Assembly: GCF_009392895.1 (NCBI RefSeq)
Contig: NZ_CP045488.1
Coordinates: forward strand, 1,364,001-1,428,000
Reading direction: 5' to 3'
Source: Natronorubrum aibiense
GTDB taxonomy: Archaea; Halobacteriota; Halobacteria; Halobacteriales; Natrialbaceae
Length of the DNA: 64,000 nt
How positions within the stretch are numbered: position 1 is the first letter of the stretch; each line of letters opens with the position of its first letter. This document shows positions 40,615 to 55,944 of the stretch, in pieces. The notes beneath the pieces were generated by a model. It worked only from the letters and a program-made list of their open reading frames with translations. It searched no databases and was not told the DNA's origin. The translations under genes and the position numbers were made by a program.

Positions 40615-41934
40615 ATGAGCAAGCACGTCTATACTGACCCGAAAGGGAAGGTCGAAGCGGCCACGGTCTGCATTGTCGGACTTGGCTACGTCGGCCTTCC
40701 ACTCGCGTACGAACTCGACGACGAAGGCCATCAGGTATGGGGTTACGACGTCGATCAAAACAAAGTCGACGTCCTCGAAGCCGGCACAGACCCAACTGGT
40801 GACGTCGGCAATGAACAAATCGCAGCCTGTGAAATCGACTTCACAACGGATTCGAGTGCTATCGAACAGGCCGAATATGTGATCGTGGCAGTTCCAACGC
40901 CCGTCGATGATCTCGAGAAACCCGACCTCGGCCTCGTCGAGAGTGCTGGGCGGACGATCGGTGAGCACCTTGAGGAGGATACGACTGTTGTCCTCGAGTC
41001 GACGGTCTACCCGGGTGCGACCCGGGAAGTGTTCGTTCCTGCACTCGAGGAAACGTCCGGATTAGACGCCGGTGAGGACTTCGGCGTCGGCTACTCTCCC
41101 GAGCGAATGGTGCCAGGCGACGATGAACATGGCCTCCGGAACGTCGTCAAGATTGTCAGTGGGCTTACTGATGAAACGCTCGAGGAAGTCGCTGCGTTGT
41201 ACGAGAGCATCGTTGACGCGGGGGTGCATCGAGCACCAACGATGGAGACCGCAGAGGCCGCAAAATGTGTCGAGAACACGCAGCGAGACCTGAATATTGC
41301 GCTGGTCAATGAGCTCGCTGTCGCCTGCGACCACCTGGGTCTGGATACGGAGTCGGTTCTCGAGGCTGCCGGGACAAAGTGGAACTTCCACGACTACCGC
41401 CCCGGACTCGTCGGAGGGCACTGTATTCCTGTGGACCCGTTCTATCTGATCTACGAGACCGAACAGCAGGGCTTTTCGCCGGAACTGATCCAGAAAGCTC
41501 GCGAGGTCAACGAGTACGTTCCGACCCACGTTGCCGATATGACGATCAAGGCGCTCAACGAGAGCGAGAAGGTGCTCGGAAACAGTCGCGTGCTCGTGCT
41601 TGGGTTGACGTACAAGCCTGATGTCGACGACATCCGAACCTCCGCGATCGACGGCGTGATCGACACGCTGCACGAGTTCGATATCGATGTCGTTGGGTTC
41701 GACCCCCATGCCGATGATGAACTCATGCGAGACGAGTTTGGGATTGAGGTTCAGGAGGAACTCGACGTCGAAGGGTTCGACGGACTCATCATCGGGACCC
41801 CACACAGCCAGTTCCACGGACTCAATTTTGGTGATCTGACGTACGATATGCGGTCCAACCCAGTCATGGTTGACGTCGATGGAACGTTTGAAAAGGAAGC
41901 GCTCGAGAATGAATTTACGTACAAGAAACTGTAA
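40615..41934 (+). CDS. wecC: UDP-N-acetyl-D-mannosamine dehydrogenase-type nucleotide-sugar dehydrogenase
   Basis: 439 residues. N-terminal NAD-binding CIVGLGYVGLPLAYELDDEG, central domain, and the catalytic cysteine in VGGHCIPVDPFYLIYETEQ. The C-terminal UDP-binding domain has VLVLGLTYKPDVDDIRTSA. The GGHCIP-DP motif is that of the WecC/CapL branch, which oxidises UDP-ManNAc or UDP-GlcNAc to the uronate, rather than the UDP-glucose dehydrogenase branch (GGSCFPKD, present in aglM here). First gene of the island operon; one-base overlap (TAATG) with the GT2 gene. Confidence 0.93.
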   Translation: MSKHVYTDPKGKVEAATVCIVGLGYVGLPLAYELDDEGHQVWGYDVDQNKVDVLEAGTDPTGDVGNEQIAACEIDFTTDSSAIEQAEYVIVAVPTPVDDLEKPDLGLVESAGRTIGEHLEEDTTVVLESTVYPGATREVFVPALEETSGLDAGEDFGVGYSPERMVPGDDEHGLRNVVKIVSGLTDETLEEVAALYESIVDAGVHRAPTMETAEAAKCVENTQRDLNIALVNELAVACDHLGLDTESVLEAAGTKWNFHDYRPGLVGGHCIPVDPFYLIYETEQQGFSPELIQKAREVNEYVPTHVADMTIKALNESEKVLGNSRVLVLGLTYKPDVDDIRTSAIDGVIDTLHEFDIDVVGFDPHADDELMRDEFGIEVQEELDVEGFDGLIIGTPHSQFHGLNFGDLTYDMRSNPVMVDVDGTFEKEALENEFTYKKL

Positions 41935-43019
41935 TGTATCGGGAACATAGCGTTGGTGTCGTCATTCCAGCATACAACGAAAAAGGGTTCGTCGGTGACG
42001 TGATCCGGGAGATGCCCGACTACGTTGACCGGATGTACCTCATCGATGACTGCTCTACTGACGATACGTGGGATGAGATCCATGAAGCTGCTCGAGAGGA
42101 TGCTGATGGGTTGGAACTCGAGTACACAGGCGGACTCGACGACAGTGGTGAAAAACGAGAAGCAGAGATCGTCGCAGACGGTGGACAAACGATGCTCGAG
42201 CGGCGAGCCATCGTTGAGGACTCGATCGGGCGTGTGGTTCCGATCCAGCACCGCGAGAACCTTGGTGCCGGTGGTGCGATTAAGACAGGCTATTTGGCCG
42301 CACTCAAGGACAAAGTCGATATTGTCCCGACCGTCGACGGCGACGGTCAAATGGATTTGTCTCAGCTGCCGAGGCTGATGGATCCGATTGTCGAAGACGA
42401 GGCCGATTACGCGAAAGGAAACCGATTGCTGTATAAGGAGTTCCGGTCGAATATGCCGCCGTTCCGTTTCTTCGGAAACTCGATCCTCACCTTCCTGACG
42501 AAGATCGCGTCGGGGTATTGGAAAACGATGGATCCCCAGAATGGGTATACGGCAATCTCTCACTATGCGCTGGCGAACGTGGGTATTGAAAATATGTACG
42601 AGTACTATGGCTACTGCAACGATCTCTTGGTGAAACTGAACGCCAAGGGGATGCGCGTGGCCGACGTCGCGATGCCGGCCGTTTACGGCGACGAGGAGTC
42701 GTCAATCGACTACACGACGTATATCCGGAAGGTGTCTGGGATGTTGTTGCGGAATTTCTTCTGGCGGCTGAAGGTGAAGTACCTCGTGCTCGACTTCCAT
42801 CCACTGGCGTTGTTCTACCTGTTCGGTGCTGCGACGACTGGACTGGGGATTGCCGGTAGCTTGTGGTCGCTGTACGCGAAGTTTGCGTTAGGTGACCCGC
42901 TGTTCATACGGGCGTCTGCGAGCCTGCTCCTGTTCTCAGTTGGGAGCATGTTCGTGATGTTCGCGATGCTGTTCGATATGCAGGCGAACGAGAGCCGGGA
43001 GGTGCAGGTCCGTGAATAA
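41934..43019 (+). CDS. GT2-family glycosyltransferase with C-terminal membrane helices
   Basis: 361 residues. The GT-A fold starts VGVVIPAYNEKGFVGDVIRE; the nucleotide-sugar metal motif is VDGDGQMD (about 119-126), with an acceptor-site FRFFGNSILTF later. An unusual 25-residue acidic insertion (ELEYTGGLDDSGEKREAEIV) interrupts the early part of the domain. Two C-terminal helices (about 282-305, 320-345) make it a dolichol-phosphate-sugar-synthase-like, membrane-attached enzyme, as for AglJ/AglD-type archaeal proteins. It would load a sugar on dolichol phosphate. Still GC-normal, unlike the genes that follow. Confidence 0.9.
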   Translation: MYREHSVGVVIPAYNEKGFVGDVIREMPDYVDRMYLIDDCSTDDTWDEIHEAAREDADGLELEYTGGLDDSGEKREAEIVADGGQTMLERRAIVEDSIGRVVPIQHRENLGAGGAIKTGYLAALKDKVDIVPTVDGDGQMDLSQLPRLMDPIVEDEADYAKGNRLLYKEFRSNMPPFRFFGNSILTFLTKIASGYWKTMDPQNGYTAISHYALANVGIENMYEYYGYCNDLLVKLNAKGMRVADVAMPAVYGDEESSIDYTTYIRKVSGMLLRNFFWRLKVKYLVLDFHPLALFYLFGAATTGLGIAGSLWSLYAKFALGDPLFIRASASLLLFSVGSMFVMFAMLFDMQANESREVQVRE

Positions 43020-43042: not shown

Positions 43043-44170
43043 ATGACTACAGAAAACCTTCGGATTCTCAGAGTCGTACAGAGTACCTATCCAGAGGTCG
43101 TTGGTGGGGTGGGAATTCACGTCCACGAAATGTCTCGGCGGCAATCCGAAATGGGGCATGACGTGACTGTCTTGACAACCGACAACGGTGATCGGTCTTT
43201 GCCCCGAACCGAGCACCGAGATGGATATACACTCGTCCGTCATAAGGAGGTCGCACGACTGATTGACAACTCAATTTTCCCCGGAGTTATTAAATCACTC
43301 TATGAAAGAGCGAATGATTTTGATATAATCCATGCTCATTCACACCTCTATTTCTCTACAAATCTATCAGCCTTGATATCGAAGATCACCGATTCCAATT
43401 TGGTGATCACGAATCATGGATTCTACTCTCAAACGGCTTCGACAAGCATTCAAAAAGTGTACAATAGGACTATTGGAAAAGCGACACTCAATTCAGCGGA
43501 TCGAATCTTCTGTTACACACCACGTGCGAAGAACATTCTTCGAGAACATAACATTGGATCGCCTATCGAGATTATCAGTAATGGAATCAACTGTGAGATC
43601 TTCGCCCCGGAGAACGAGGAGGATGAGACCCAGCAGATACTCTTCGTAGGTAGACTGAAAAATGGAAAAAGGCCGGACGCCCTTATTCGTGGATTTGGAA
43701 AACTTGTCGATGAATATCCAAACTACCAACTAAAAATCGTTGGGGATGGACCGATGCTCCCAGACTTAAAAACACTATGTAATGAGAAGAACATCCAAGA
43801 GATGGTCACGTTCACGGGTGAGCTCTCGTACGACGAAATGCCAGACGTCTATAGACAAAGCGATCTGTTAGTCTTACCAACAAAAACGGAGGCTGCAATC
43901 CCGCGCGTAGTGATGGAAGCGTGGGCATGTAAAACCCCTGCTATTATGCCGAATATTCAGGAGATTGACGCAGAGATATTTAAAAAAGGAGGTATACTCT
44001 GTGATGGCACCCCGAGTGGTATCTACGACTCTGTTCGTCAACTGATCGAAGACGATCAGTTACGCTCTACGCTGGGTAACACGGGCCGGGAGGTCGTCCA
44101 AGAGAAGTACTCGTGGGCGGAAACTGTCGAAAAAACGACTGAGACATATTACGAGGTCGTCAATGAGTGA
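43043..44170 (+). CDS. GT4-family glycosyltransferase
   Basis: 375 residues with GT-B fold. N-terminal VVQSTYPEVVGGVGIHVHEM (acceptor loop), then the C-terminal domain with ILFVGRLKNGKRPDALIRGF and the E-x7-E motif in LPTKTEAAIPRVVMEAWACK. Retaining glycosyltransferase acting at the cytoplasmic face, donor unknown. Base composition drops from here on. It overlaps the DUF354 gene by eight bases. Confidence 0.92.
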   Translation: MTTENLRILRVVQSTYPEVVGGVGIHVHEMSRRQSEMGHDVTVLTTDNGDRSLPRTEHRDGYTLVRHKEVARLIDNSIFPGVIKSLYERANDFDIIHAHSHLYFSTNLSALISKITDSNLVITNHGFYSQTASTSIQKVYNRTIGKATLNSADRIFCYTPRAKNILREHNIGSPIEIISNGINCEIFAPENEEDETQQILFVGRLKNGKRPDALIRGFGKLVDEYPNYQLKIVGDGPMLPDLKTLCNEKNIQEMVTFTGELSYDEMPDVYRQSDLLVLPTKTEAAIPRVVMEAWACKTPAIMPNIQEIDAEIFKKGGILCDGTPSGIYDSVRQLIEDDQLRSTLGNTGREVVQEKYSWAETVEKTTETYYEVVNE

Positions 44171-45278
44171 CGTATTATTCACGATTCAACATCCAGCGGA
44201 CGTTCATCTCTTCCGAAATGCAATCCAGCAGCTATCGGAGCAACACGAGGTGCACGTATTTGTCCGAGAAAAAGACGTCAATATTGAACTGCTGAATCGA
44301 TATGACATCAAGCACGAAGTTCTCACCACCAGCACGCCGGGAATCGTAGGTACGGTCAAGACGCAGTTGATCTATGAGTACAAGCTCTTTCGCCGGGCGA
44401 TGGAGATTCAACCCGATGTAATGTGTGCTGACGGCGGGATTGCAATCAGCCATATCTCATCCGTCTTGGACTCCACGAGTCTCGTGTTTACCGACACGGA
44501 ACACGTGGTTGATAGCGCTCTCGATCGACGACACCTCATCTACAACTTCGCAGATGAAGTCTACACGCCGGACTGTTACTGGCTTGATCTCGGAGCGAAT
44601 CACTTCCAATACTCGGGCTATCATGAATTAGCATATCTGCATCCAGATCGATTCGAACCAGATCCGTCGATTCGACAACAGTTCGAGATCGACGACGACG
44701 ACGTGTCGATCGCTCTGTTGCGACTCGTTTCGTGGGAAGCATTTCACGACCGAGGTAATAGCGGTCTCTCCGAGATTGGGACGGTGATCGACTATCTCGA
44801 GGATAGCGGAATGGAGGTCTTCATCTCATCTGAAGGTGAGATCCCCGGCCAGTACGCACACCTCGAAGTTGATCTACCGGTCGATGAGATCCACCATCTC
44901 ATGTCCGAAGCGGATCTCTTCGTCGGAGAAAGTTCGACAATGGCCTCCGAATGCGCTATGTTAGGAACGCCAGCAGTCTTCATCTCGTCCCTTCAGTTGG
45001 GATACCTTGAGGAACTCGAGCACGAATATGATCTTGTCGTCAATCTCACCCCGAACGAAGAACAGTATCTCCTCAATGAGGTAGAAACGATTCTGGAAAA
45101 AGACGACCAATACTGGGAAACGCAGCGACAGCGACTTCTAGAAGATAAGATCGATACATCAAATTACATCGTGGAACGCATATCTCGGCATCTCAGCACC
45201 GATCATTCGACAAAGACGGACAGCATCTCGGCAGCATCGAAGAACTCTAGCGGACGCCAAGAGAATAACATAGAATGA
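44163..45278 (+). CDS. DUF354 family protein (GT-B-like)
   Basis: 371 residues. N-terminal VLFTIQHPADVHLFRNAIQQ and the central MCADGGIAISHISSVLDSTS and FTDTEHV blocks define DUF354, a family of glycosyltransferase-B-like proteins found in archaeal polysaccharide loci and related to UDP-GlcNAc 2-epimerases/MurG. The C-terminal half keeps LFVGESSTMASECAMLGTPA, which corresponds to the nucleotide-binding segment. A transferase or epimerase role on a UDP-sugar is likely. It overlaps both neighbours (8 and 4 bases), indicating coupled translation. Confidence 0.87.
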   Translation: MSDVLFTIQHPADVHLFRNAIQQLSEQHEVHVFVREKDVNIELLNRYDIKHEVLTTSTPGIVGTVKTQLIYEYKLFRRAMEIQPDVMCADGGIAISHISSVLDSTSLVFTDTEHVVDSALDRRHLIYNFADEVYTPDCYWLDLGANHFQYSGYHELAYLHPDRFEPDPSIRQQFEIDDDDVSIALLRLVSWEAFHDRGNSGLSEIGTVIDYLEDSGMEVFISSEGEIPGQYAHLEVDLPVDEIHHLMSEADLFVGESSTMASECAMLGTPAVFISSLQLGYLEELEHEYDLVVNLTPNEEQYLLNEVETILEKDDQYWETQRQRLLEDKIDTSNYIVERISRHLSTDHSTKTDSISAASKNSSGRQENNIE

Positions 45279-46507
45279 CCAACAGAATTCAACAGTCGAT
45301 CGACGATCGCGACAGCATGAAAGACAAAAACGTACTGGTGATCGCTCACCGGTACAGCCACTTTACGAAAGAACAGGTCGACGAATTGGCCGAGCGGGTG
45401 AACGAAATACACGTTTATGTACGCTACAATCGGCTCACTGATCTGAACAAGATCATCGAGACGGAGACACTGAAACAGTATGGAACGCACGATAAGGTTG
45501 TGGATTCCACGCCCGAGAACGTCACTGTTCATACGACTCCCTTAACCTACCTTCCGATCGACACCTGGTATCGGTATCTCGGGAAACATCACTACGCCGC
45601 CGTTCGACGGCAGGTCGCGAAGAATCCGGTTGATTTCGATCTCGTTCACTCTCATTTCGCCTGGACTGCTGGGTACGCAGGGGCCAAACTGGGTGAGGAA
45701 TACGACATCCCCAGCGTTCTAACGATCCACGAAGACGTTGATCGGCTCAACGAAGAACTTGCCTGGGACAACAGCGACCTAGAGTGGACGCTTCGAAACT
45801 CCGATGCAATCATTCGCGTGAACGAACGAGACTGTGAACGGCTGTCTTCGTTTAACGATACCGTCTACTCGATCCCGAACGGGTACGATCGCGATCGATT
45901 CCCATTGCTTGAGGCGGAAGAAGCGAGGGGCGAGCTTGATCTGCCGCACAATGCGTCGATCATCTTCTCGCTGGGAACTCTCATTCCTCGTAAGCGACCG
46001 AAGGCGTTGATCAGAGCTGTCTCCCAACTCGAGACAGACAATGACCTCATCTGTGCGATTGCAGGGCGAGGTGAACAACGCGAAGAAGTCGAGCAGTTAG
46101 CCCAGGAGGTGGGCGAGGATGTGGATATCCGAATTCTCGGCTACATCTCTGATGAAGAGTTAGCTGCCTGGATGAACGCATGTGATATCTTCGCTCTCGC
46201 AAGTTCGTCAGAGGGCAATCCGACGGTCATGTTTGAAGCGTTAGGATGTGGGAAGCCGTACGTCGGCACGAACGTCGGCGGCGTTGATGAAATTATCACG
46301 TCCGACGAGTATGGACTACACTGTCCACCGAATTCAGAAGAGGCCCTGATCGATATCCTACAAACTGGTCTTCAGACCGACTGGGACCGCGACGCAATCC
46401 TAGAGTACTCGGAGCAGTTCACTTGGGAACAAATCTCTGATCGGGTATTCCAAGTGTACAAATCCCTCTGGGATCAATCAACAGAACCCACCCTTGTTCC
46501 ACAATAA
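45275..46507 (+). CDS. GT4-family glycosyltransferase
   Basis: 410 residues. The GT-B fold has an N-terminal domain with VHSHFAWTAGYAGAKL, and a C-terminal domain with IIFSLGTLIPRKRPKALIRA and the E-x7-E motif SSEGNPTVMFEALGCGKPYV. An alternative start at 45317 (ATG, MKDKNVLVIAHRYSHF) would remove 14 residues and fits the fold start better, but the four-base overlap with the upstream stop supports the first ATG. Retaining transferase in the island operon. Confidence 0.92.
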   Translation: MTNRIQQSIDDRDSMKDKNVLVIAHRYSHFTKEQVDELAERVNEIHVYVRYNRLTDLNKIIETETLKQYGTHDKVVDSTPENVTVHTTPLTYLPIDTWYRYLGKHHYAAVRRQVAKNPVDFDLVHSHFAWTAGYAGAKLGEEYDIPSVLTIHEDVDRLNEELAWDNSDLEWTLRNSDAIIRVNERDCERLSSFNDTVYSIPNGYDRDRFPLLEAEEARGELDLPHNASIIFSLGTLIPRKRPKALIRAVSQLETDNDLICAIAGRGEQREEVEQLAQEVGEDVDIRILGYISDEELAAWMNACDIFALASSSEGNPTVMFEALGCGKPYVGTNVGGVDEIITSDEYGLHCPPNSEEALIDILQTGLQTDWDRDAILEYSEQFTWEQISDRVFQVYKSLWDQSTEPTLVPQ

Positions 46508-46517
46508 GTGACTATCG

Positions 46518-47687
46518 ATGGCTAATATACTCATCATTTCACCAGGACATGCCCCGGATCGCATCAGCCGACAACCGTGGGCGTATCTCCAAGGTCTCGC
46601 CGATCAACTCAGCGAGCGCGATCACAACGTGTCCGTCATCGGTGATGGACCACAATCGGCGGAGAGTTCCAAGACGATATCTACGAAGTTTCAATTCGTC
46701 GAATCAGTCCGTGATCCAGCCGCTATTGCTGAGGCTGCGAGAGCTTTCGATCCCGACGTCTGCTTGTGGTCACTCGCACCGATTGCATCCCTCTATCTGA
46801 CCCAGCGTGTACCGAAGATTGCAGACACGATGGTTGCAGTTGTGCCAGGACCACTCTATTCGCCACGGGACATTGCTTCGCAGCTTTCCCGTCAAGACTT
46901 CTCGAAACTCCCATCATATGCATCACTCGTTGCGAGTTCTTGTGTGCCGCAAGCATGGTTCTCGTACTTTTTGCGGTCGAATTTCGATTTCACCGTCGCA
47001 CCGACAACAACGATCGTCGACAAGGTATCTTTGTGGGGATACCCTCGAGAGAAGGCATTGCACGTCCCTCACGGACTTGATAGTGGTATTCTTACGAAAT
47101 TATCTGACGAGGAGTTTCGCGACGAGATTCCGTCACCGCCGGACGGAGACTACGTCGTGAATTTCGGGCCGCCAAGGCCGATTCGCGGCGCCCAGGATTT
47201 CGTCGAGGCTGTGTTGATGCTGCGGGAGGCCGGCCACGACGTGACCGGCGTCATGCTCGCGCGTATCGATGACGACGACGATCGCGACCTCCTCGAGGAG
47301 ATCAAGGGGGATCTTGTACGACGCGGCCACCAGGGGGCAATCCTTATCACAGACGCATATCTGACACCACATGAGCTGAAAACGTACATCTGCGGTGCGA
47401 CGGCAGCCGTGCTTCCGTACCGCATAGTGCAGTCGACGGTTCCGGTTTCGATCATCGAAGGACTCGGGCTTGGCTGTCCAGTTATCACAACCGATATCGC
47501 CGGCGCTCGTGAGCTCGCTCCGTCGGCTACTCTAACTGTAAGTTCGGGCAGCGTTGAAGAGCTTGTTGCAGCAATCGGACGTCATCTAAGCGGCGGCCAT
47601 ACCACTACTGAGGATCAGTTAACTGCTCATCTTCCGACCTGGGATGCCGCAGTAGGCCAGTTGGAGGAGGAAATATCGAAACAATGA
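46518..47687 (+). CDS. GT4-like glycosyltransferase
   Basis: 389 residues. N-terminal ILIISPGHAPDRISRQPWAY and LQGLADQLSERDHNVSVIGD form the acceptor domain. The C-terminal domain has YVVNFGPPRPIRGAQDFVEA (the donor-site loop beginning with NFGPP instead of the usual VGR) and a QSTVPVSIIEGLGLGCPVIT stretch where the E-x7-E pattern is reduced to one glutamate. So it belongs to GT4 but with an altered donor site. Ten bases after the previous gene; end of the tight glycosyltransferase run. Confidence 0.87.
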   Translation: MANILIISPGHAPDRISRQPWAYLQGLADQLSERDHNVSVIGDGPQSAESSKTISTKFQFVESVRDPAAIAEAARAFDPDVCLWSLAPIASLYLTQRVPKIADTMVAVVPGPLYSPRDIASQLSRQDFSKLPSYASLVASSCVPQAWFSYFLRSNFDFTVAPTTTIVDKVSLWGYPREKALHVPHGLDSGILTKLSDEEFRDEIPSPPDGDYVVNFGPPRPIRGAQDFVEAVLMLREAGHDVTGVMLARIDDDDDRDLLEEIKGDLVRRGHQGAILITDAYLTPHELKTYICGATAAVLPYRIVQSTVPVSIIEGLGLGCPVITTDIAGARELAPSATLTVSSGSVEELVAAIGRHLSGGHTTTEDQLTAHLPTWDAAVGQLEEEISKQ

Positions 47688-47770: not shown

Positions 47771-48463
47771 ATGAACGTACTAAAACCATCCGTACCTACT
47801 CTTCCTCCCGACCTCGAGATCGTCGGCTTCCTTGGGTCTGATGGAGTGGGAACGACGACGCACGCGGAACACGCTTCCCAATTTTTCGAATCAAGAGGCC
47901 TGAGAACCCACACGGAGTGGATGAGATTCAACCATCGTCTTTCACTCCCGGTCTTAGGACTCGGACGACTACTAGGGAAAACGCCCGAGTATCGTGATAA
48001 AAACGGGAATACGCTCCGCGCACATCACTTCGAGGATTTGAGCCTCTTGGCCGCCACCTATCAAAAGGTACTTCCTATTGACCAACGCCTGATGGTGAAA
48101 CAGAAGTTCGAATCCGTCCCTGATGATGCCGACGCGCTCATTTGTGACCGATTCATTCTGGACGGATTAGTCGATCTCGTTGTCGCCACGAAGGATATTT
48201 CGCTCTTAGAGAACTCTACTGCGGACCAGTTCTGGGAGTTAGTCCCTTCTCAAGCGACGATTATCGGTCTCGACTGTGATCCAGAGACGATCGCAGCACG
48301 TCGTCCTGATGTTGCACCTGACCCTTTCTTGGAACTCCGAACAAAAGTTTATAGACGCCTCTTTGAGAAGGATCGAATTGATGTGGTCGATACATCACAG
48401 CCAATAGAGGACGCAAGAGAAGATGTTGTAAATATATTTGAAGGAAATCATGGAAATTCATAA
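47771..48463 (+). CDS. Thymidylate-kinase-like P-loop protein with altered Walker A
   Basis: 230 residues. The opening EIVGFLGSDGVGTTTHAEHA aligns with the TMP-kinase P-loop (GxDGSGKST), but the invariant lysine is threonine (Thr28). The rest keeps the kinase layout: ICDRFILDGLVDLV (DR motif), LDCDPETIAARRPD (lid arginine region) and a final Asp-Val-Val-Asp-Thr strand. Its length is near normal for TMP kinases. A housekeeping dTMP kinase is unlikely here; homologs in surface-glycan islands are thought to act on a sugar, lipid or polyprenol. The change could abolish ATP binding. Overlaps the next gene. Confidence 0.75.
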   Translation: MNVLKPSVPTLPPDLEIVGFLGSDGVGTTTHAEHASQFFESRGLRTHTEWMRFNHRLSLPVLGLGRLLGKTPEYRDKNGNTLRAHHFEDLSLLAATYQKVLPIDQRLMVKQKFESVPDDADALICDRFILDGLVDLVVATKDISLLENSTADQFWELVPSQATIIGLDCDPETIAARRPDVAPDPFLELRTKVYRRLFEKDRIDVVDTSQPIEDAREDVVNIFEGNHGNS

Positions 48464-49076
48464 AAAACTATACCACGAGTTAGTCAGGAGTGACCGTCTT
48501 CCGATGCCATTGCGGGGAAGTATCAAACTCACAAGCCATTGGGTCTTCCAAGGGACTCGTCGGATGGATACTTTTGAGCGTGCGTTCAAACTCGGCTGTA
48601 CTGCTGTTTTTGCCTTCGTATTCTCTCGCAGACTAGATCGGACTGTAACTGCCTTATTACTCGGTCACAGTCTGAACTTCTTGCTAAATTCTCATGCCGT
48701 TTCTGCGCTTAGATCAATGAATCTCTCGTTCTATACGGAATGGGATGAATTTGACGCGTATGCAACCAATCTTTTGGATAATCTCACAGAGCGTAGCTGG
48801 GTGAAAACTATTTATGTTACTGGAAGTCTCAACGATAATCGTAATGAATGGCAACCTGGATCGGATCTAGATGTTATTGTTATCAGAAAACCAGGAATTA
48901 CAAACGGTATTAAGGCCGTGTTTGGCGCTCTTCTAGTCAGATTCTCCGCAACCGTCAATCTCTTTCCACTAGATATTTACTTTTTTGATAAAGAAGGAAC
49001 ACTTGAAGATCGCCTAATAGATAAACAGGAGAAATTGATTCCGTATAGTAATCAAAACAATAGAAATAAACGTTGA
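48450..49076 (+). CDS. Membrane-associated minimal nucleotidyltransferase
   Basis: 208 residues from the ATG at 48450; an upstream TTG (48438) is less likely. Overlap with the kinase-like gene is 14 bases. Two hydrophobic stretches (about 46-60 and 66-84) precede a pol-beta-type nucleotidyltransferase core: VTGSLNDNRNEWQPGSDLDV (GS-x10-SDLD, first two metal Asp) and FPLDIYFFDKE (third Asp). The C-terminus is basic. The family transfers a nucleotide to a protein, antibiotic or small molecule. Paired with the kinase-like protein, it may modify an island lipid or glycan. Confidence 0.72.
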   Translation: MEIHKKLYHELVRSDRLPMPLRGSIKLTSHWVFQGTRRMDTFERAFKLGCTAVFAFVFSRRLDRTVTALLLGHSLNFLLNSHAVSALRSMNLSFYTEWDEFDAYATNLLDNLTERSWVKTIYVTGSLNDNRNEWQPGSDLDVIVIRKPGITNGIKAVFGALLVRFSATVNLFPLDIYFFDKEGTLEDRLIDKQEKLIPYSNQNNRNKR

Positions 49077-49243
49077 ATTAGGAATATATTCATAGAATAT
49101 GTAACAGATGTATGAAATACAGAAAATAACATATGATACTGGTTGCGGATTTCGTGTGATCCGTAGGCTATTTAATTACGCATGTATACTATGAAAATAA
49201 GAATCGATAATTAATAAAGCCTAGTCGATTGAGGTCTCTCTGT

Positions 49244-50707
49244 ATGGGATTAGCTTCTCAACTAGGAGACCGTTTCAAAACGGCATTCCTATCTGAGATC
49301 GTTGGGCTCGTAGCAGGAACTATTTTAACTGTTCTTCTTGCACGCGTACTTGATCCAGATTCGTACGGTTTGTTGTTTCTTGCAATTTCAATTTTTACTG
49401 TGGCTAAACTTTTTAGTTCATTTGGAATTCCTAAGTCAGCTAGCCGATATCTTTCGGAATATAAAGAAAAAGACCCTAGCCAAATACCTCACATTTTACG
49501 CGAATCTCTTCTTATGAATTTACTAGTAATAACAGTAGTGGTTTTAATACTAATGAGCTTTAATAGTCGAATTGCTGGAATAATAGGAAATAATGATCTA
49601 TCTGAGTTCCTATTTTTTGGCTCTGGATTTATTCTCTTTGCTACCTTATTCACTTATGTTCGTCTCTCACTGCAAGGTTTGGAACATATACAAACTGCCT
49701 CTTTCCTTGATGCCATGAATAAATCAGGACGAGCACTATTTGCAATAGGCTTAGCAGTTCTTGGCTATGGTGCTCTTGGTGCATTAATAGGATATATTAT
49801 AAGTTATACTATAGTATCCTTCATTGGAATATTATATTTATACTTTCATTTTTATAGTGGTATTAGCAGTTCTAATATAGAAGACGGACTCCGTCATAAA
49901 ATAGCTAAGTATTCACTTCCACTTGCCATTACCCAGTCCGCGCATAGTCTTGATCATCAAGTAGACAGGATACTCATAGGTATCTTTGTAGGACCTGCTG
50001 GAGTTGCTTTTTATACACTTGGAAAACAGATTGTTCAATTTATTGAAACTCCTATGGCAGCACTTGGATTTACGCTCTCTCCAGCATACAGTTCTCAAAG
50101 AGCAAAAGGAAATACTGAAACGGCAGCTCGTATTTACGAAACAGCAATCTCTCAGGGATTATTATTATATATCCCAGCTGCTACAGGCGTAATTCTCTTA
50201 GCAGAACCCGGAATCACAGTGCTATTTGGAGATGAGTATCAAGGTGCTGCACCTGTCATACAAATTTTAGCCATATTTGTCGTCTTAAAATCAATTACTA
50301 CATTAACAAGCGATGGATTAGATTTCCTAGGTAGAGCACGTGAACGGGCGATAATTAAGGGAGTAACCGCGGTATTGAACGTTTTGCTGAATATCGTATT
50401 AATTCCAATTATGGGTGTTGTTGGAGCTGCGATAGCCACAGTTATCACTTATTCTATATATACATTTGGGAATGTGTTTATAATTCATAAGGAACTAAAT
50501 ATAAATACCTCGATGATGATTAAATACTCAGTTTCTGCAGTAATAATCTCTCTAATGATGGCCCTATCAATCTTGACCTTCTTCGACCTAACTGCAGAAA
50601 TCCCAGTATTAGTTTCGGCTGTATTATTCGGCGCGACTATCTGGACAGTAATAGTGATTCCAACTGGATTAATAAAGCTGGAACAAATAAAAGAAGCAGT
50701 AATTTAG
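49244..50707 (+). CDS. Wzx-type oligosaccharide flippase (MOP superfamily)
   Basis: 487 residues from the ATG at 49244; a TTG at 49229 is in frame. It has 12-14 membrane helices. The N-terminal pattern LGDRFKTAFLSEIVGLVAG and LLARVLDPDSYGLLFLAISI is that of polysaccharide-biosynthesis flippases, with a later LGRARERAIIKGVTAVLNVL block at helix 10-11. It probably moves the lipid-linked glycan across the membrane, like AglR in Haloferax. Very AT-rich with little GC-third-position bias, unlike a typical haloarchaeal gene, so clearly foreign in style. Confidence 0.92.
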   Translation: MGLASQLGDRFKTAFLSEIVGLVAGTILTVLLARVLDPDSYGLLFLAISIFTVAKLFSSFGIPKSASRYLSEYKEKDPSQIPHILRESLLMNLLVITVVVLILMSFNSRIAGIIGNNDLSEFLFFGSGFILFATLFTYVRLSLQGLEHIQTASFLDAMNKSGRALFAIGLAVLGYGALGALIGYIISYTIVSFIGILYLYFHFYSGISSSNIEDGLRHKIAKYSLPLAITQSAHSLDHQVDRILIGIFVGPAGVAFYTLGKQIVQFIETPMAALGFTLSPAYSSQRAKGNTETAARIYETAISQGLLLYIPAATGVILLAEPGITVLFGDEYQGAAPVIQILAIFVVLKSITTLTSDGLDFLGRARERAIIKGVTAVLNVLLNIVLIPIMGVVGAAIATVITYSIYTFGNVFIIHKELNINTSMMIKYSVSAVIISLMMALSILTFFDLTAEIPVLVSAVLFGATIWTVIVIPTGLIKLEQIKEAVI

Positions 50708-50727
50708 CTGAGGGTGTCATACAATTC

Positions 50728-51000
50728 ATCTCATTGCGTTCGTCCCAGGGAGCCGATCACGAACGAAGTCACCGAGCTTACTGTCGTACTCACGGACTCG
50801 GCGGTTGATTGCCGTAATCGAGGGCATGGACGTGAAGCCGTCGCCGTGGGCGACGGCATCACGATCGCTGAGCGAGGTGGCGAGTTCAGCAATCTGAAGC
50901 GAGATGTCTTCTTGATAGATGCGCTAGCCGTCGAATTCGATGAGATCTTCGAGTGGACGGAAGTAGGTAGGATCGTCGTCGGTAGTGTTTTGTCTTGGGC
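50728..51000 (-). pseudogene. Decayed GC-rich gene fragment, family not identified
   Basis: The minus strand encodes a readable, GC-normal stretch: DDDPTYFRPLEDLIEFDG, an in-frame TAG (near 50926), then RIYQEDISLQIAELATSLSD, followed by about 40 more residues to a stop at 50728. It looks like the C-terminal part of an ordinary haloarchaeal protein broken by a stop codon. I cannot assign a family. It interrupts the AT-rich island between the flippase and the first sulfatase-like gene, so it may mark an old insertion or deletion boundary. Confidence 0.4.
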
Positions 51001-51181
51001 GATGCTAACTGCGAACCGCACGTTGATTTCGGCGTGCATGGGGCACCTCGGGTAGGTACCAAAGGTGACCCCCTTTCACAGGAGTCAGTTATTGCTCTAG
51101 ACGAGTTTGAGACACGACCTATATGTTGGACCTCTCACTAAACGAAACAATTAGAACCCCTCAAACCGATGTTGTTTCTAC

Positions 51182-52561
51182 ATGAGATGGGATATTAGAA
51201 TGATGAATACTGTGACACCTAGTTTTCTAAAACCATATGCTGAATGGTGTTATCAAAAAACGAGAAATCAATATAAAAACATTAAAAATAACGTAGATCA
51301 TAATAAGCGAATTTCAAAAGTACCAGAGATAAATTTAGAGTCAAAAGACATTGTATTTATAACGGTTGACTGCTTGAGAAATGATCGCATTTCGAGACAT
51401 AATGACCGAGAAACAACCCCATTTTTAAATTCATCGGCAAACTATTCTGAGGGTGTCAGTGCATCATCTTGGACATACAGTTCAGTTCCTTCTTTACTAA
51501 CTGGATTGTATCCGCATAATCATGGTGCAGTATTTGATGTTGATTACCGTAATTATTTATCAGATGATTCATTAAGTTCAGTCCGTTCTGATGTTTATAC
51601 ACTTCCAGAACTCTTAGAGACTGCAGGTTATCGAACAGCATTCACAACAGGTATCACTACTGCACAAATACCACTTCATGGCCGATTTGGGTCCACAATA
51701 ATTAAAAATGACTCGGATTGCAACCAAATGTTTGAATATGTGAAAGATTGGTGGGAAAAGAATACTTTTGCGAATGGACGATTTGCATATCTCCAGCTCG
51801 CTGATCTGCACACTCCGCTTCATGAACCAGATAAACAATGGTTCAATGGCCCACTTTCCCTTGGTAACTTTGACTATGTCGATGGAGACATAGATAGTTC
51901 TGATTTTAGAGAATATCGTGAAAATCGATTCCGAGCATATGATAACCTTCTTAGAGCCATTGACTCTTCTATTGAATCTTTCGTAAATTGGTTAGATTCC
52001 CGAAGAGAATTGAAGGACACATTGATTATCGTTACAAGTGACCATGGGGAAGAACACTGGGAATGGACCAAGTTCGAAAAATCATCATTTAATGATCCAA
52101 GAGACCAATACGGAGTTGGACATGGTCATGCACTTGTTCCTCCGGTAACAGATGTTCCTATCTATACTTTAGGAAACATACCCGAATCATCTGAGACTCA
52201 GAATTCAACCATTGATATAGTTCCAACAGTTTTGGAAATGTTAGGATATAATAACGAATTGGATTATCAATTTGACGGTGAAAGTTGGATTGAGCCAACA
52301 GTATCGGATAGACGATTTCTCAGCGAAGAGACTGCTTATGGTCATAATCAACTAGCAGTTATTTCAGAGAAAGACCAGTTCATTTATATTCCATCAACTG
52401 AAGAAAGCTATCTCATAGATCGTGAATCCCAGTCGGTGGTTGATGACTTCAACAGTCAAGAGTATATGACCCACCTTCCTAAACGCTTCAAGACAGGAGA
52501 TTCAGTGAGTATTGATGGAGAAACAGAAGATCAGCTAGCCGCACTTGGTTATCTCGAATAG
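51182..52561 (+). CDS. Sulfatase-superfamily hydrolase/transferase
   Basis: 459 residues. The alkaline-phosphatase-like core begins at about residue 55 (IVFITVDCLRNDR with metal ligand Asp63). The nucleophile segment SASSWTYSSVPSLLTGLYPH has Thr98 where classical sulfatases have Cys or Ser (CxPSR-x4-TG). Metal ligands recur in TSDHGEEHWE. There is no signal peptide or helix, so it acts in the cytoplasm. Thr nucleophiles are known in the phosphoethanolamine/phosphoglycerol transferase branch. It may transfer or remove a phospho- or sulfo-group on the glycan. AT-rich. Confidence 0.85.
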   Translation: MRWDIRMMNTVTPSFLKPYAEWCYQKTRNQYKNIKNNVDHNKRISKVPEINLESKDIVFITVDCLRNDRISRHNDRETTPFLNSSANYSEGVSASSWTYSSVPSLLTGLYPHNHGAVFDVDYRNYLSDDSLSSVRSDVYTLPELLETAGYRTAFTTGITTAQIPLHGRFGSTIIKNDSDCNQMFEYVKDWWEKNTFANGRFAYLQLADLHTPLHEPDKQWFNGPLSLGNFDYVDGDIDSSDFREYRENRFRAYDNLLRAIDSSIESFVNWLDSRRELKDTLIIVTSDHGEEHWEWTKFEKSSFNDPRDQYGVGHGHALVPPVTDVPIYTLGNIPESSETQNSTIDIVPTVLEMLGYNNELDYQFDGESWIEPTVSDRRFLSEETAYGHNQLAVISEKDQFIYIPSTEESYLIDRESQSVVDDFNSQEYMTHLPKRFKTGDSVSIDGETEDQLAALGYLE

Positions 52562-52641
52562 GTTATTGAAACTACCTGTATTCTTATTGGTTGAACCTGT
52601 TGTTTATGGGGAATTTTTAGATATTCTGATAAATTCTCGTA

Positions 52642-54510
52642 CTAGTTACTTGTGATTAATTTGGCTTCGTCATTATTATAGACCACATCTCCAGCTGGTT
52701 TCGGCAGCGGTCCGTGCACTCCAAATGTGCGGCTATCATATCTCATATAATAAGCATTACTGTCCGTAGTCACATATGATCTATGGATATAAATACGATC
52801 AATATTCGGATTCAATTCCCCCCCATCAGGATAGTACGTATATATTTCTGCTTTATCATCATAGTGTCGATCAATAATCCGTACTGCTAGATTATCTCCA
52901 ACGATTGTTCTATCACCTTGATATTCGATCGCAGATGTATATGCATGATTCTCTGCACTTGTCATTGCATATCGTTCTGCGCCTGGAGCATCAAAAACGG
53001 GGTCATCAAGAGCCCCCATAAAGTTGAATGACATGAAAACAACTACTGTAAGAACACCTATAATGAATAAACCAGTTTTGATGTACTCTGGGAATACACG
53101 TGGAACTGTAGATATAGCAGCATATACGCCCACCGCCGCAAAAATACTGAGAATAATATAGATGAATATAAACCATCTACGTGGAATCAAGAAATTTAGT
53201 CCGACTATTGGCCCTCCAAATGAAAACGCGAAAAGCGTTCCCAATGCCATTCCTAATGGAATCGCGATCATCAACGATCGTCGAGTATTAGCCCTTAGCC
53301 ACGTCAACCCGCCAAGTATCCCCAGGCCAGTGAGCAATCCAACCCCGATTGTATGTTCTATTGTAAGTGCATTTGACCCTCCAAGAACAGCATTTTCGAA
53401 ATCAGGGAGAACAGCGCTCCTTGAACCTGCATTCTGTATATTTGCAACAAAACGTATAACTAGAGTTTGTAGGAAGGACAGATCACTGTTAATACCGAAT
53501 CGTGTTACCAGCCAATCCAAAATGATTAGGCATCCTACTATTAATGTGACATAGCTGGTTCGGATAGGTGAATAGTCCGTAATAGCCAAGTATGATATGT
53601 AAAATACGAATATAGTAACAAATGTAATAAAAAACGATATCTGATGTGAAAACATAAGTGCGATCACAGAACTGATCACCAGCATCAAAAATCGATCTGA
53701 GTTAGTTTGCGTAAATTGAAGGAAAGAGTAGATTGTCATAGTAAAGAAGATAGTTCCCAGAGTCGTTGAGACCGGCATGACCGACCAAGAGATTGTATAA
53801 TCTGAGATGCTGTATAAAAACCCAGCAAGCAATCCAACCTGGCTAGACCAATAGCGAACAGTAATTGAATAAACGAGAACTGTTGGCACGAGTACTAAAG
53901 CAACACCGCTTATAACAAATGCAGTAGCTCTGATCGGGAGATTGAGAATATGGCTCCCCGTTGCTGTCAATATATGGTAAAATGGGGCAAACCAATACTG
54001 TGATGGGGCAAGTGGAGCAAGTGTGCCGGCTGAAGCAATCTCTCCGGCTACTCGATTATGATAGAGTGAGTCAATTCCAATTTGAATGGCACTTGAATAA
54101 TATATCTGTACTCGGTGGAGTATACCAACTATACATAACCCTCCCAGGCTTATAATATCTGATGAATCGCTTAGAAACAACAAGAGGACGACACCATACA
54201 GGGCTATAATACTGCCATGGATCGCTGTTGTTCGTGTGTAGCCTGCATCTTGAAAGAGTACTATTGATACTGCAATAAGCAAAAACAGGCAAGTTATTAC
54301 AAGACGTACAGGAATTCTAATAGAAATAGATAATTCAGGACGGTCAGAAGATATAAAATAAACTACTGCTGCTAGGGTAATTGCAGGGGAAAGGACAATT
54401 GTATATGGATTTGTTATTTTAGTGGAAATAATCATTCCAACTAATCCAATAGAAAAGATACCTATTGCTGGGAGTTGTGTCTGGATGACTTTTTCCAGAC
54501 TTACATTCAT
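52642..54510 (-). CDS. Large multi-TM membrane protein (glycan polymerase / GT-C-like)
   Basis: 622 residues with about 13-14 hydrophobic helices over residues 10-500 and a soluble C-terminal domain (about 505-622) rich in Tyr and Asp. An extracytoplasmic loop after the third or fourth helix carries polar residues (HNRVAGEIASAGTLAPLAPS), as in GT-C glycosyltransferases and Wzy polymerases; a strict catalytic motif is not visible. It lies downstream of the second sulfatase-like gene, 42 bases apart and likely co-transcribed. Role in assembly of the island glycan is inferred from context. Confidence 0.75.
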   Translation of the reverse strand: MNVSLEKVIQTQLPAIGIFSIGLVGMIISTKITNPYTIVLSPAITLAAVVYFISSDRPELSISIRIPVRLVITCLFLLIAVSIVLFQDAGYTRTTAIHGSIIALYGVVLLLFLSDSSDIISLGGLCIVGILHRVQIYYSSAIQIGIDSLYHNRVAGEIASAGTLAPLAPSQYWFAPFYHILTATGSHILNLPIRATAFVISGVALVLVPTVLVYSITVRYWSSQVGLLAGFLYSISDYTISWSVMPVSTTLGTIFFTMTIYSFLQFTQTNSDRFLMLVISSVIALMFSHQISFFITFVTIFVFYISYLAITDYSPIRTSYVTLIVGCLIILDWLVTRFGINSDLSFLQTLVIRFVANIQNAGSRSAVLPDFENAVLGGSNALTIEHTIGVGLLTGLGILGGLTWLRANTRRSLMIAIPLGMALGTLFAFSFGGPIVGLNFLIPRRWFIFIYIILSIFAAVGVYAAISTVPRVFPEYIKTGLFIIGVLTVVVFMSFNFMGALDDPVFDAPGAERYAMTSAENHAYTSAIEYQGDRTIVGDNLAVRIIDRHYDDKAEIYTYYPDGGELNPNIDRIYIHRSYVTTDSNAYYMRYDSRTFGVHGPLPKPAGDVVYNNDEAKLITSN

Positions 54511-54552
54511 ACCATTATATATACGATTACTATGGTATATACTCTCGGTTTT

Positions 54553-55944
54553 TCACTGGAGATAACCTAAATCTCGAAGTTGATCTTTCATTTCAATGTT
54601 AAATTCAGCAGTTTGTTGATTACCAATTGGCTTTCCATACTCCATCATCCAATCCTCGTATTCTTCTTCTAATTCCTTTATGACCTCTGGGTTAGAAGTA
54701 GATACATCAGTGTCTTCATCTGGGAGTGAATATAATTCGGTTGTTTCATCCGATACCTGGAACTTCCACTCTTTAGTTCTCAGACTCGTAAGGTCTTCCC
54801 TATGGAATTGACTATCTGGAAAATTTGAATTATAGCTTGTAATCTCATTTAGGAGTGATTCAATATGAGTACCTCCTTCTTGAGTTATTGCTATTTCCCG
54901 TGGTTGTTTTCGAATGTCTAACCCGATTGGTACGGAATGATCTACCCCACATTCTGAACAGAGTATCTGCATCAGGTCTGCAGGCTGTACAAGTGAATCA
55001 CCCAACGGCTCATTGAGGCCATTCACAATTAGCGGAACATTTGTCACAGGATTGTTTATATCAATTACATGTGATAGTAATCCTTTCTCCCCGAAGTATT
55101 CCCCATGGTCTGCGGTTATAACTATGATTGGATTATCTAGCATTTGATGGGCGTACTCAACAAGTTCTCCAACCAAGTGATCAACATATGCCACACAAGT
55201 GTCGTACATTACACGGAGAGCTTTCCATTCTTCAGTAGTATACATATCCGATTCCGATATTTTTTCATGCAGATTGATGGCCATATCTAAACTAAGGTCA
55301 ATAGCATCATCTATCTCAAACGGCAGTTCGTCATCAAAATAGTCCCGCCAAGCAAGTGGGGGAACGTATGCAAAATGTGTATCTCCATGATGAAGATACA
55401 AAAACAGCGGATCATCGTCTTTGGCCTTTTCTTTGATATGATCTTTAGCAATAATATTGATTGGATAGCCTGTACATTGTTGATTAGTATCGAGAGTGAA
55501 TCCACCAGAGTGATTCCGGAAATTGGAGGCCCAACGGATAAGACCCTTGAAACCGACTTCCTTGGTTAAGTTTGATTTTGATAAGTAATGGAAATGATCA
55601 AATCCACGGTCAAGTCCTGTCTGAGGACTGAATTGTGCCACTGGAGATATGCCTGCTGTTTGGTAACCTGCTTCACGAAAAGCTTCAGGGATGGTCTCTA
55701 TTTCATTGGGCAAAGCTGAATCAGAATCCCATGTTTGGTGCGCTGATGGGGGTAAGCCAGTAAGAATTGATGCACTGGCGGGACGGGTCCAGATTGCGTG
55801 TGAGTGACAATATGGAGACCAATCTCCTTCATTAGCAATCTTAGACAGATTTGGCGTTGTCTCCCGAGGAGCCTCCCCTACAGAGACATGGTCTTGCCTA
55901 AGACTTTCCAAAGTGATCCAAATAACATCTCGTTTAGTCATCAA
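54553..55944 (-). CDS. Second sulfatase-superfamily hydrolase/transferase
   Basis: 463 residues. The fold starts DVIWITLESLRQDH, with Glu13 at the position of the usual first metal Asp. The nucleophile stretch SHAIWTRPASASILTG has Thr53 in place of Cys/Ser. Further metal motif TADHGEYFGEKG near the middle. The C-terminus ends in DQLRDLGYL, and the other sulfatase-like protein ends similarly (DQLAALGYLE), so the two are related despite modest similarity. No signal peptide. Probably acts on cytoplasmic glycan intermediates or lipids. Confidence 0.85.
   Translation of the reverse strand: MMTKRDVIWITLESLRQDHVSVGEAPRETTPNLSKIANEGDWSPYCHSHAIWTRPASASILTGLPPSAHQTWDSDSALPNEIETIPEAFREAGYQTAGISPVAQFSPQTGLDRGFDHFHYLSKSNLTKEVGFKGLIRWASNFRNHSGGFTLDTNQQCTGYPINIIAKDHIKEKAKDDDPLFLYLHHGDTHFAYVPPLAWRDYFDDELPFEIDDAIDLSLDMAINLHEKISESDMYTTEEWKALRVMYDTCVAYVDHLVGELVEYAHQMLDNPIIVITADHGEYFGEKGLLSHVIDINNPVTNVPLIVNGLNEPLGDSLVQPADLMQILCSECGVDHSVPIGLDIRKQPREIAITQEGGTHIESLLNEITSYNSNFPDSQFHREDLTSLRTKEWKFQVSDETTELYSLPDEDTDVSTSNPEVIKELEEEYEDWMMEYGKPIGNQQTAEFNIEMKDQLRDLGYLQ

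Follow-up and report, generated by a model that had tools for sequence, protein, structure and literature searches.

Why does a glycan locus of the haloarchaeon Natronorubrum aibiense contain a protein that resembles thymidylate kinase (TMK), has lost the P-loop lysine and overlaps a nucleotidyltransferase (NTase) gene? When a gene of a glycan cluster is labelled 'thymidylate kinase', it is readily dismissed as part of nucleotide metabolism. We analysed a 64,000-nucleotide stretch of contig NZ_CP045488.1 (positions 1,364,001 to 1,428,000, forward strand; hereafter, the window), in which the two genes lie among the following features.

40615..41934, + strand, UDP-sugar dehydrogenase
41934..43019, + strand, GT2 glycosyltransferase, best window match of L015:5165-6112 and L071:216-1184 from related loci
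43043..44170, + strand, GT4 glycosyltransferase
44163..45278, + strand, DUF354-type protein
45275..46507, + strand, GT4 glycosyltransferase
46518..47687, + strand, GT4 glycosyltransferase with a conserved QPW motif (RQPW in the window), third constant member of the cassette
47771..48463 (including stop), + strand, TMK-like P-loop protein of 230 amino acids, Thr28 replacing the Walker A lysine
47834..47860, + strand, P-loop, codons 22–30 (GSDGVGTTT), codon 28 being ACG at 47852–47854
48450..48463, + strand, 14-base overlap of kinase end and NTase start
48450..49076 (including stop), + strand, pol-beta-type NTase of 208 amino acids with GS (125–126), SDLD (138–141) and a third Asp (175)
49229..50707, + strand, Wzx/MOP-type flippase

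A thymidylate-kinase-like protein without the P-loop lysine

The kinase frame (47771–48463) runs uninterrupted through 230 amino acids and its P-loop reads G22-S-D-G-V-G-T28-T-T, bearing out the claim of an earlier, sequence-only reading that the lysine is replaced; the Walker A pattern GxxxxGK[ST] is absent and GSDGVGTT stands in its place. Codon 28 (ACG) differs by a single base from the lysine codon AAG. A sequencing error here is scarcely credible—it would need one substitution in one genome, but the genome is assembled in 4 contigs (99.98% complete), the site is not a homopolymer and further window-specific losses accompany Thr28.

The family assignment made in that reading was right in kind, with sub-threshold profile matches for the window copy: the Pfam Thymidylate_kin score is 18.3 bits (cut-off, 27), confined to residues 108–218 and leaving the Walker half without a Pfam match, and TIGR00041 scores 12.7 (cut-off, 83.25). 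Its further statement that the remaining kinase motifs are in place was correct for the DR motif (D126-R127) and the Arg-rich lid (R177-R178), and the other P-loop positions checked are also kept, but CDRFILDGLVD occupies the place at which haloarchaeal TMKs carry DRYxxSRxAYQ. In thymidylate kinases, the DRYxxSxxAYQ stretch serves TMP recognition.

An AlphaFold2 model of the kinase, built from two sequences, was of moderate quality (pLDDT 70.4, pTM 0.69) and unsure at residues 26–28 (under 50) and 100–112. Its top Foldseek matches were TMKs (2pbr, E 6e-7, TM 0.54) and included PDB 5x8j, titled 'K16M mutant' of TMK; a profile search of the PDB also returned TMKs (best E 4e-8). The protein can be assigned an NMP-kinase fold. 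A tree built from 21 kinases placed the window protein with the kinases of the four related cassettes described below (L015, L070, L071 and L072), at a support of 94/91 that narrowly misses the level at which the tool calls a branch firm; the long branch of the window protein (2.0) makes its exact position unsure. Members of this clade both group together and lie between a GT4 and an NTase. Twelve kinases were split from the housekeeping TMKs (support 99/98), and those of genomes G123 and G138 (locus C3) were placed on the TMK side.

The relationship to thymidylate kinase is thus real, given the fold, the tree and the weak profile matches. A dTMP kinase identity was rejected, as the profiles are sub-threshold and both the Walker A lysine and the TMP-recognition stretch are missing. 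The window genome carries a separate, normal housekeeping TMK, and Thymidylate_kin matches above the cut-off were present in 194/194 class genomes searched. The missing stretch and the separate TMK support the earlier view that the locus does not serve dTMP synthesis, and the pair is very unlikely to make dTDP. The 194 genomes were also screened for second PF02223 copies, and those listed with more than one match, 11 in number, were re-inspected together with G344, G358 and G293 (the G358 and G293 kinases being known from the class-wide kinase similarity search rather than from the second-copy search). No backup (second) cassette kinase was found in the window genome.

The overlapping nucleotidyltransferase

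The NTase start (ATG, 48450) precedes the kinase stop (48461–48463), which confirms the 14-base overlap noted previously. The earlier pol-beta call was also apt in kind: G[SG], DxD and a third acidic residue are all present, with an NTP_transf_2 score of 18.6 bits that lies below the cut-off of 21. Residues G125, S126, D139, D141 and D175 are invariant in 5/5 sequences (window and four relatives), and the window NTase still looks catalytic. Two membrane segments had been proposed as well; in the N-terminal region of the window copy no 19-residue stretch exceeds 1.13 (Kyte–Doolittle), whereas maxima of 1.5–2.0 are found among the four relatives, and the hydrophobic segments appear marginal even in these. 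The structure model was poor (pTM 0.37), too weak for the fold to be read from it, and a PDB profile search matched only minimal nucleotidyltransferases, weakly (best E 0.066).

A glycan cassette shared by archaea and Chloroflexota

In the class, 4/391 genomes gave matches to the NTase at E ≤ 0.01, strong only in the window's own genome and in Halobaculum saliterrae (G293). A profile search across the phylum matched 17/246 genomes, three of them strongly (the window's own, G524 and G526, the last two belonging to two other archaeal orders). Order-wide searches around G526 (9/109 genomes at E ≤ 1e-4) and G524 (5/57 at the same threshold) each returned the seed genome alone as a strong match (E < 1e-90), and the remaining matches (E > 1e-6) look like generic NTase matches. 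With tblastn on plasmids, each protein of the pair gave one record, in both cases Herpetosiphon aurantiacus pHAU01, and a GTDB scan using narrow patterns from a two-row NTase alignment found the Halobaculum locus as the sole relative. A virus origin of the NTase was rejected: no relative was found in viral_contigs, where 0 of 117 pattern-matching stretches were confirmed.

The order GT4(QPW)–kinase–NTase is found in the window, in Halobaculum (L015/L051), in G524 and G526 and on the plasmid of Herpetosiphon (Chloroflexota), with cassette proteins of the relatives 23–33% identical to those of the window. The kinase adjoins the NTase in 5/5 loci found for this NTase family, and in each of the four relative loci it is placed after the QPW-motif GT4. 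The pair is therefore a real, recurrent unit of glycan loci, lying beside glycosyltransferases in both archaea and Chloroflexota, in agreement with the link between the two genes that the sequence-only reading had suggested. Upstream of the QPW GT4, Halobaculum, G526 and Herpetosiphon carry GT2, GT2, Alg14-like, Alg13-like and GT4 genes in identical order, and G524 has the second GT2 and an Alg13-like gene; the DUF354-type protein of the window may stand about where the relatives carry Alg14/Alg13. The Halobaculum NTase sits on the opposite strand. In Herpetosiphon, the NTase (L072:10614-11204, between Haur_5092 and Haur_5091) also overlaps the kinase by 14 bases, provided that translation begins at the ATG at L072:10614; the gene is missing from the PLSDB gene table for pHAU01.

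The part of the window beginning with the flippase (49229–55944; flippase, two sulfatase/phosphatase-like genes and a PMT_2-like membrane protein) has a GC content of 0.37–0.42, as against 0.54–0.62 in several other window genes, and looks like recently acquired DNA. Two arylsulfatase-like proteins encoded on opposite strands (51182–52561 and 54553–55944) flank a 622-amino-acid membrane protein.

Lysine in the relatives and a second partnership

Similarity searches with the kinase matched 8/391 class genomes at E ≤ 0.001, including the window's own genome and one fragment. The P-loop site was read in 15 relatives—the four cassette kinases; those of G358, G138 (locus C1), G069, G002, G344 and G043; those of G123, G100 and G138 (C3); and the solitary plasmid kinases L122 and L123. 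Lysine is present in all 15, the four cassette orthologues included, and threonine in the window copy alone, in what is a sample of homologues of which public protein databases hold many more. The count omits L008 (G295; a 52-residue match with two stops), L087 and L094 (partial matches in G177) and L095–L098 (frames of 630–700 amino acids matching only in the P-loop part), and housekeeping TMKs were tallied separately (lysine in 13/13 loci read). Conservation of threonine across the family, expected in the earlier reading, is rejected; by the test that the earlier reader had set, Thr28 is a local change. Among ten genomes of the genus, only the window's own has the cassette NTase, and no close relative of the window kinase usable for dN/dS was found.

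Six further kinases of haloarchaeal glycan loci, found through kinase similarity and not NTase similarity, each have a same-strand NTP_transf_5-type NTase upstream within two genes (loci L104 in G043, L009 in G002, L018 in G069, L020 in G344, L016 in G358 and L017 in G138), and all six keep the P-loop lysine. The NTase gene directly adjoins the kinase in G069, G002, G344 and G043, and is one or two genes away in G138 (C1) and G358. Its NTP_transf_5 Pfam score exceeds the cut-off in G069, G002 and G043 and falls short of it in G358 and G344. In G138, the protein lacks an NTP_transf_5 match but shares 32% identity with its G358 counterpart over 332 amino acids (E 9e-66). In total, an NTase lies within two genes of the kinase in 10/15 relatives. 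None was seen in the genes shown near the kinases of G123, G138 (C3), G100, L122 and L123, indicating that the kinase fold does not always depend on an NTase. The G123 locus holds sugar-metabolism-like genes. Similar kinases with the P-loop GPDGSGKTT and no NTase nearby occur on haloarchaeal replicons (L122:4992-5627, L123:4989-5693 and L103:5810-6424); those of plasmids L122 and L123 are annotated as hypothetical protein.

One TMK-like clade is thus tied to a dedicated NTase across archaea and bacteria, and related kinases to a second NTase family. This wider kinase/NTase module is a more interesting result than the private threonine.

Loss and retention in the window kinase

Besides the lysine, the window kinase has lost a hydrophobic helix: the mean hydropathy of residues 90–112 is 0.12, compared with 1.16–1.23 in the four cassette kinases (it is also low, 0.18 and 0.28, in two of the six NTP_transf_5-partnered kinases). 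In NMP kinases, mutation of the Walker A lysine removes most of the activity. As P-loop lysine mutants are generally poor enzymes, the kinase step should be lost or weak in the window, and we consider phosphotransfer most likely lost or strongly reduced. Continued activity without the P-loop lysine, with the phosphates enclosed by some other basic residue, seems improbable; the other P-loop positions checked, D126-R127 and R177-R178 are kept and overall conservation is on par with the neighbouring proteins, but lysine is retained throughout the 15 relatives and the corresponding mutants keep little activity. Another basic residue could nevertheless take the place of K28, which counts against the reading that we favour.

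Of the positions invariant in the other four cassettes, the window kinase keeps 28/40, the NTase 27/38 and the GT4 30/47, and a leave-one-out comparison showed each of the three window proteins to be the most divergent in its set. We considered whether the kinase is decaying faster than the genes beside it, and this was not seen. A conservation level equal to that of similarly diverged neighbours points to an old, divergent cassette in which the kinase is not obviously decaying, making a retained non-catalytic role plausible. These data also bear on a recent AAG-to-ACG loss of function in a single strain, which would have left a dead passenger kinase and a glycan without its former phosphate decoration. 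The single-base difference, the restriction of threonine to this genome, the accompanying loss of the hydrophobic helix, the branch length of 2.0 and the lack of a Pfam match in the Walker half all speak for such an event, but the frame is intact, the 14-base overlap is retained and conserved positions are kept at about the neighbours' rate, and we regard this account as possible but somewhat unlikely.

Proposed function of the pair

Our favoured reading, to which we give a probability of about 0.42, is that the kinase and NTase form the terminal decoration pair of a horizontally spread surface-glycan cassette, with kinase activity lost or much weakened in the window and the protein kept as a non-catalytic partner of the NTase. 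The constant set of glycosyltransferases, kinase and NTase, which adjoins a flippase in the window, is consistent with a lipid-linked glycan being decorated at a late stage. In the relatives, we infer that a membrane-associated TMK-fold kinase would place a phosphate on the lipid-linked glycan during its growth, or on a cap precursor, after which a membrane-associated pol-beta NTase would attach a nucleotidyl or phosphosugar group to that acceptor. For the window, absence of the P-loop lysine and of the hydrophobic helix would have abolished or strongly reduced phosphotransfer, and the kinase would probably persist as a partner of the NTase. Weighing against this reading are the five kinase relatives with no NTase nearby, the confinement of threonine to one sequence, the opposite-strand NTase of Halobaculum, the marginal hydrophobic segments of the relatives and the low helix values of two NTP_transf_5-partnered kinases. 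A narrower version, which we think doubtful, is that a TMK-fold pseudokinase holds or switches on a membrane NTase and that nucleotidylation of the glycan proceeds with no phosphorylation before it.

Alternatively, the pair may make, or may once have made, an activated sugar, with a free sugar or a sugar phosphate as substrate of the kinase, whose product the NTase would convert to an NDP-sugar for the cassette glycosyltransferases. Kinase/pyrophosphorylase pairs are a common logic of sugar activation, and here a kinase and a nucleotidyltransferase adjoin glycosyltransferases. However, sugar nucleotidyltransferases are usually of a non-pol-beta fold, pol-beta enzymes use hydroxyl acceptors and the hydrophobic segments of the relatives point to a membrane substrate; we therefore hold sugar activation to be unlikely. 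The rival readings overlap and are not mutually exclusive.

On the narrower, pseudokinase version above, the ancestral pair, spread between archaea and Chloroflexota, would stand for a previously undescribed way of decorating lipid-linked surface glycans in two steps, phosphoryl and nucleotidyl. The kinase/NTase linkage makes such a modification testable, and with the window copy nature provides a case in which an enzymatic need for the kinase can be told from a need for it as a partner only. In the literature searched, outside which most subscription papers lie, we recognised no report on a TMK-like kinase/nucleotidyltransferase pair in glycan loci.

Comparison with known systems

Thymidylate kinases (PF02223/TIGR00041) share the NMP-kinase fold, DR motif and Arg-rich lid with the window kinase, which differs in its sub-threshold scores, in lacking the DRYxxSxxAYQ stretch and the Walker A lysine, and in belonging to a separate clade. 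The window NTase has the GS, DxD and third Asp of the pol-beta superfamily (PF01909 NTP_transf_2/PF18765 Polbeta); it differs in a constant block that follows DLD (R146, G149, N152-G153) and in an N-terminal part, ~100 residues long, whose segments are marginally hydrophobic, and it has no close solved relative (best E 0.066). The NTP_transf_5 (PF14907)-partnered kinases resemble the window pair in that a nucleotidyltransferase gene lies no more than two genes from a TMK-like kinase, but the partner is of another NTase family and lies upstream of the kinase, which keeps its lysine. A parallel in the logic of the steps is PsmK/PsmN of the lasso peptide pseudomycoidin, a kinase and a nucleotidyltransferase-like enzyme that act serially on one acceptor, the second on the phosphorylated product of the first (review, PMC9266682). 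The substrate there is a peptide, unlike that proposed for the window pair; on that pattern, phosphorylation of a glycan by the ancestral pair would be followed by its nucleotidylation or glycosyl-phosphorylation.
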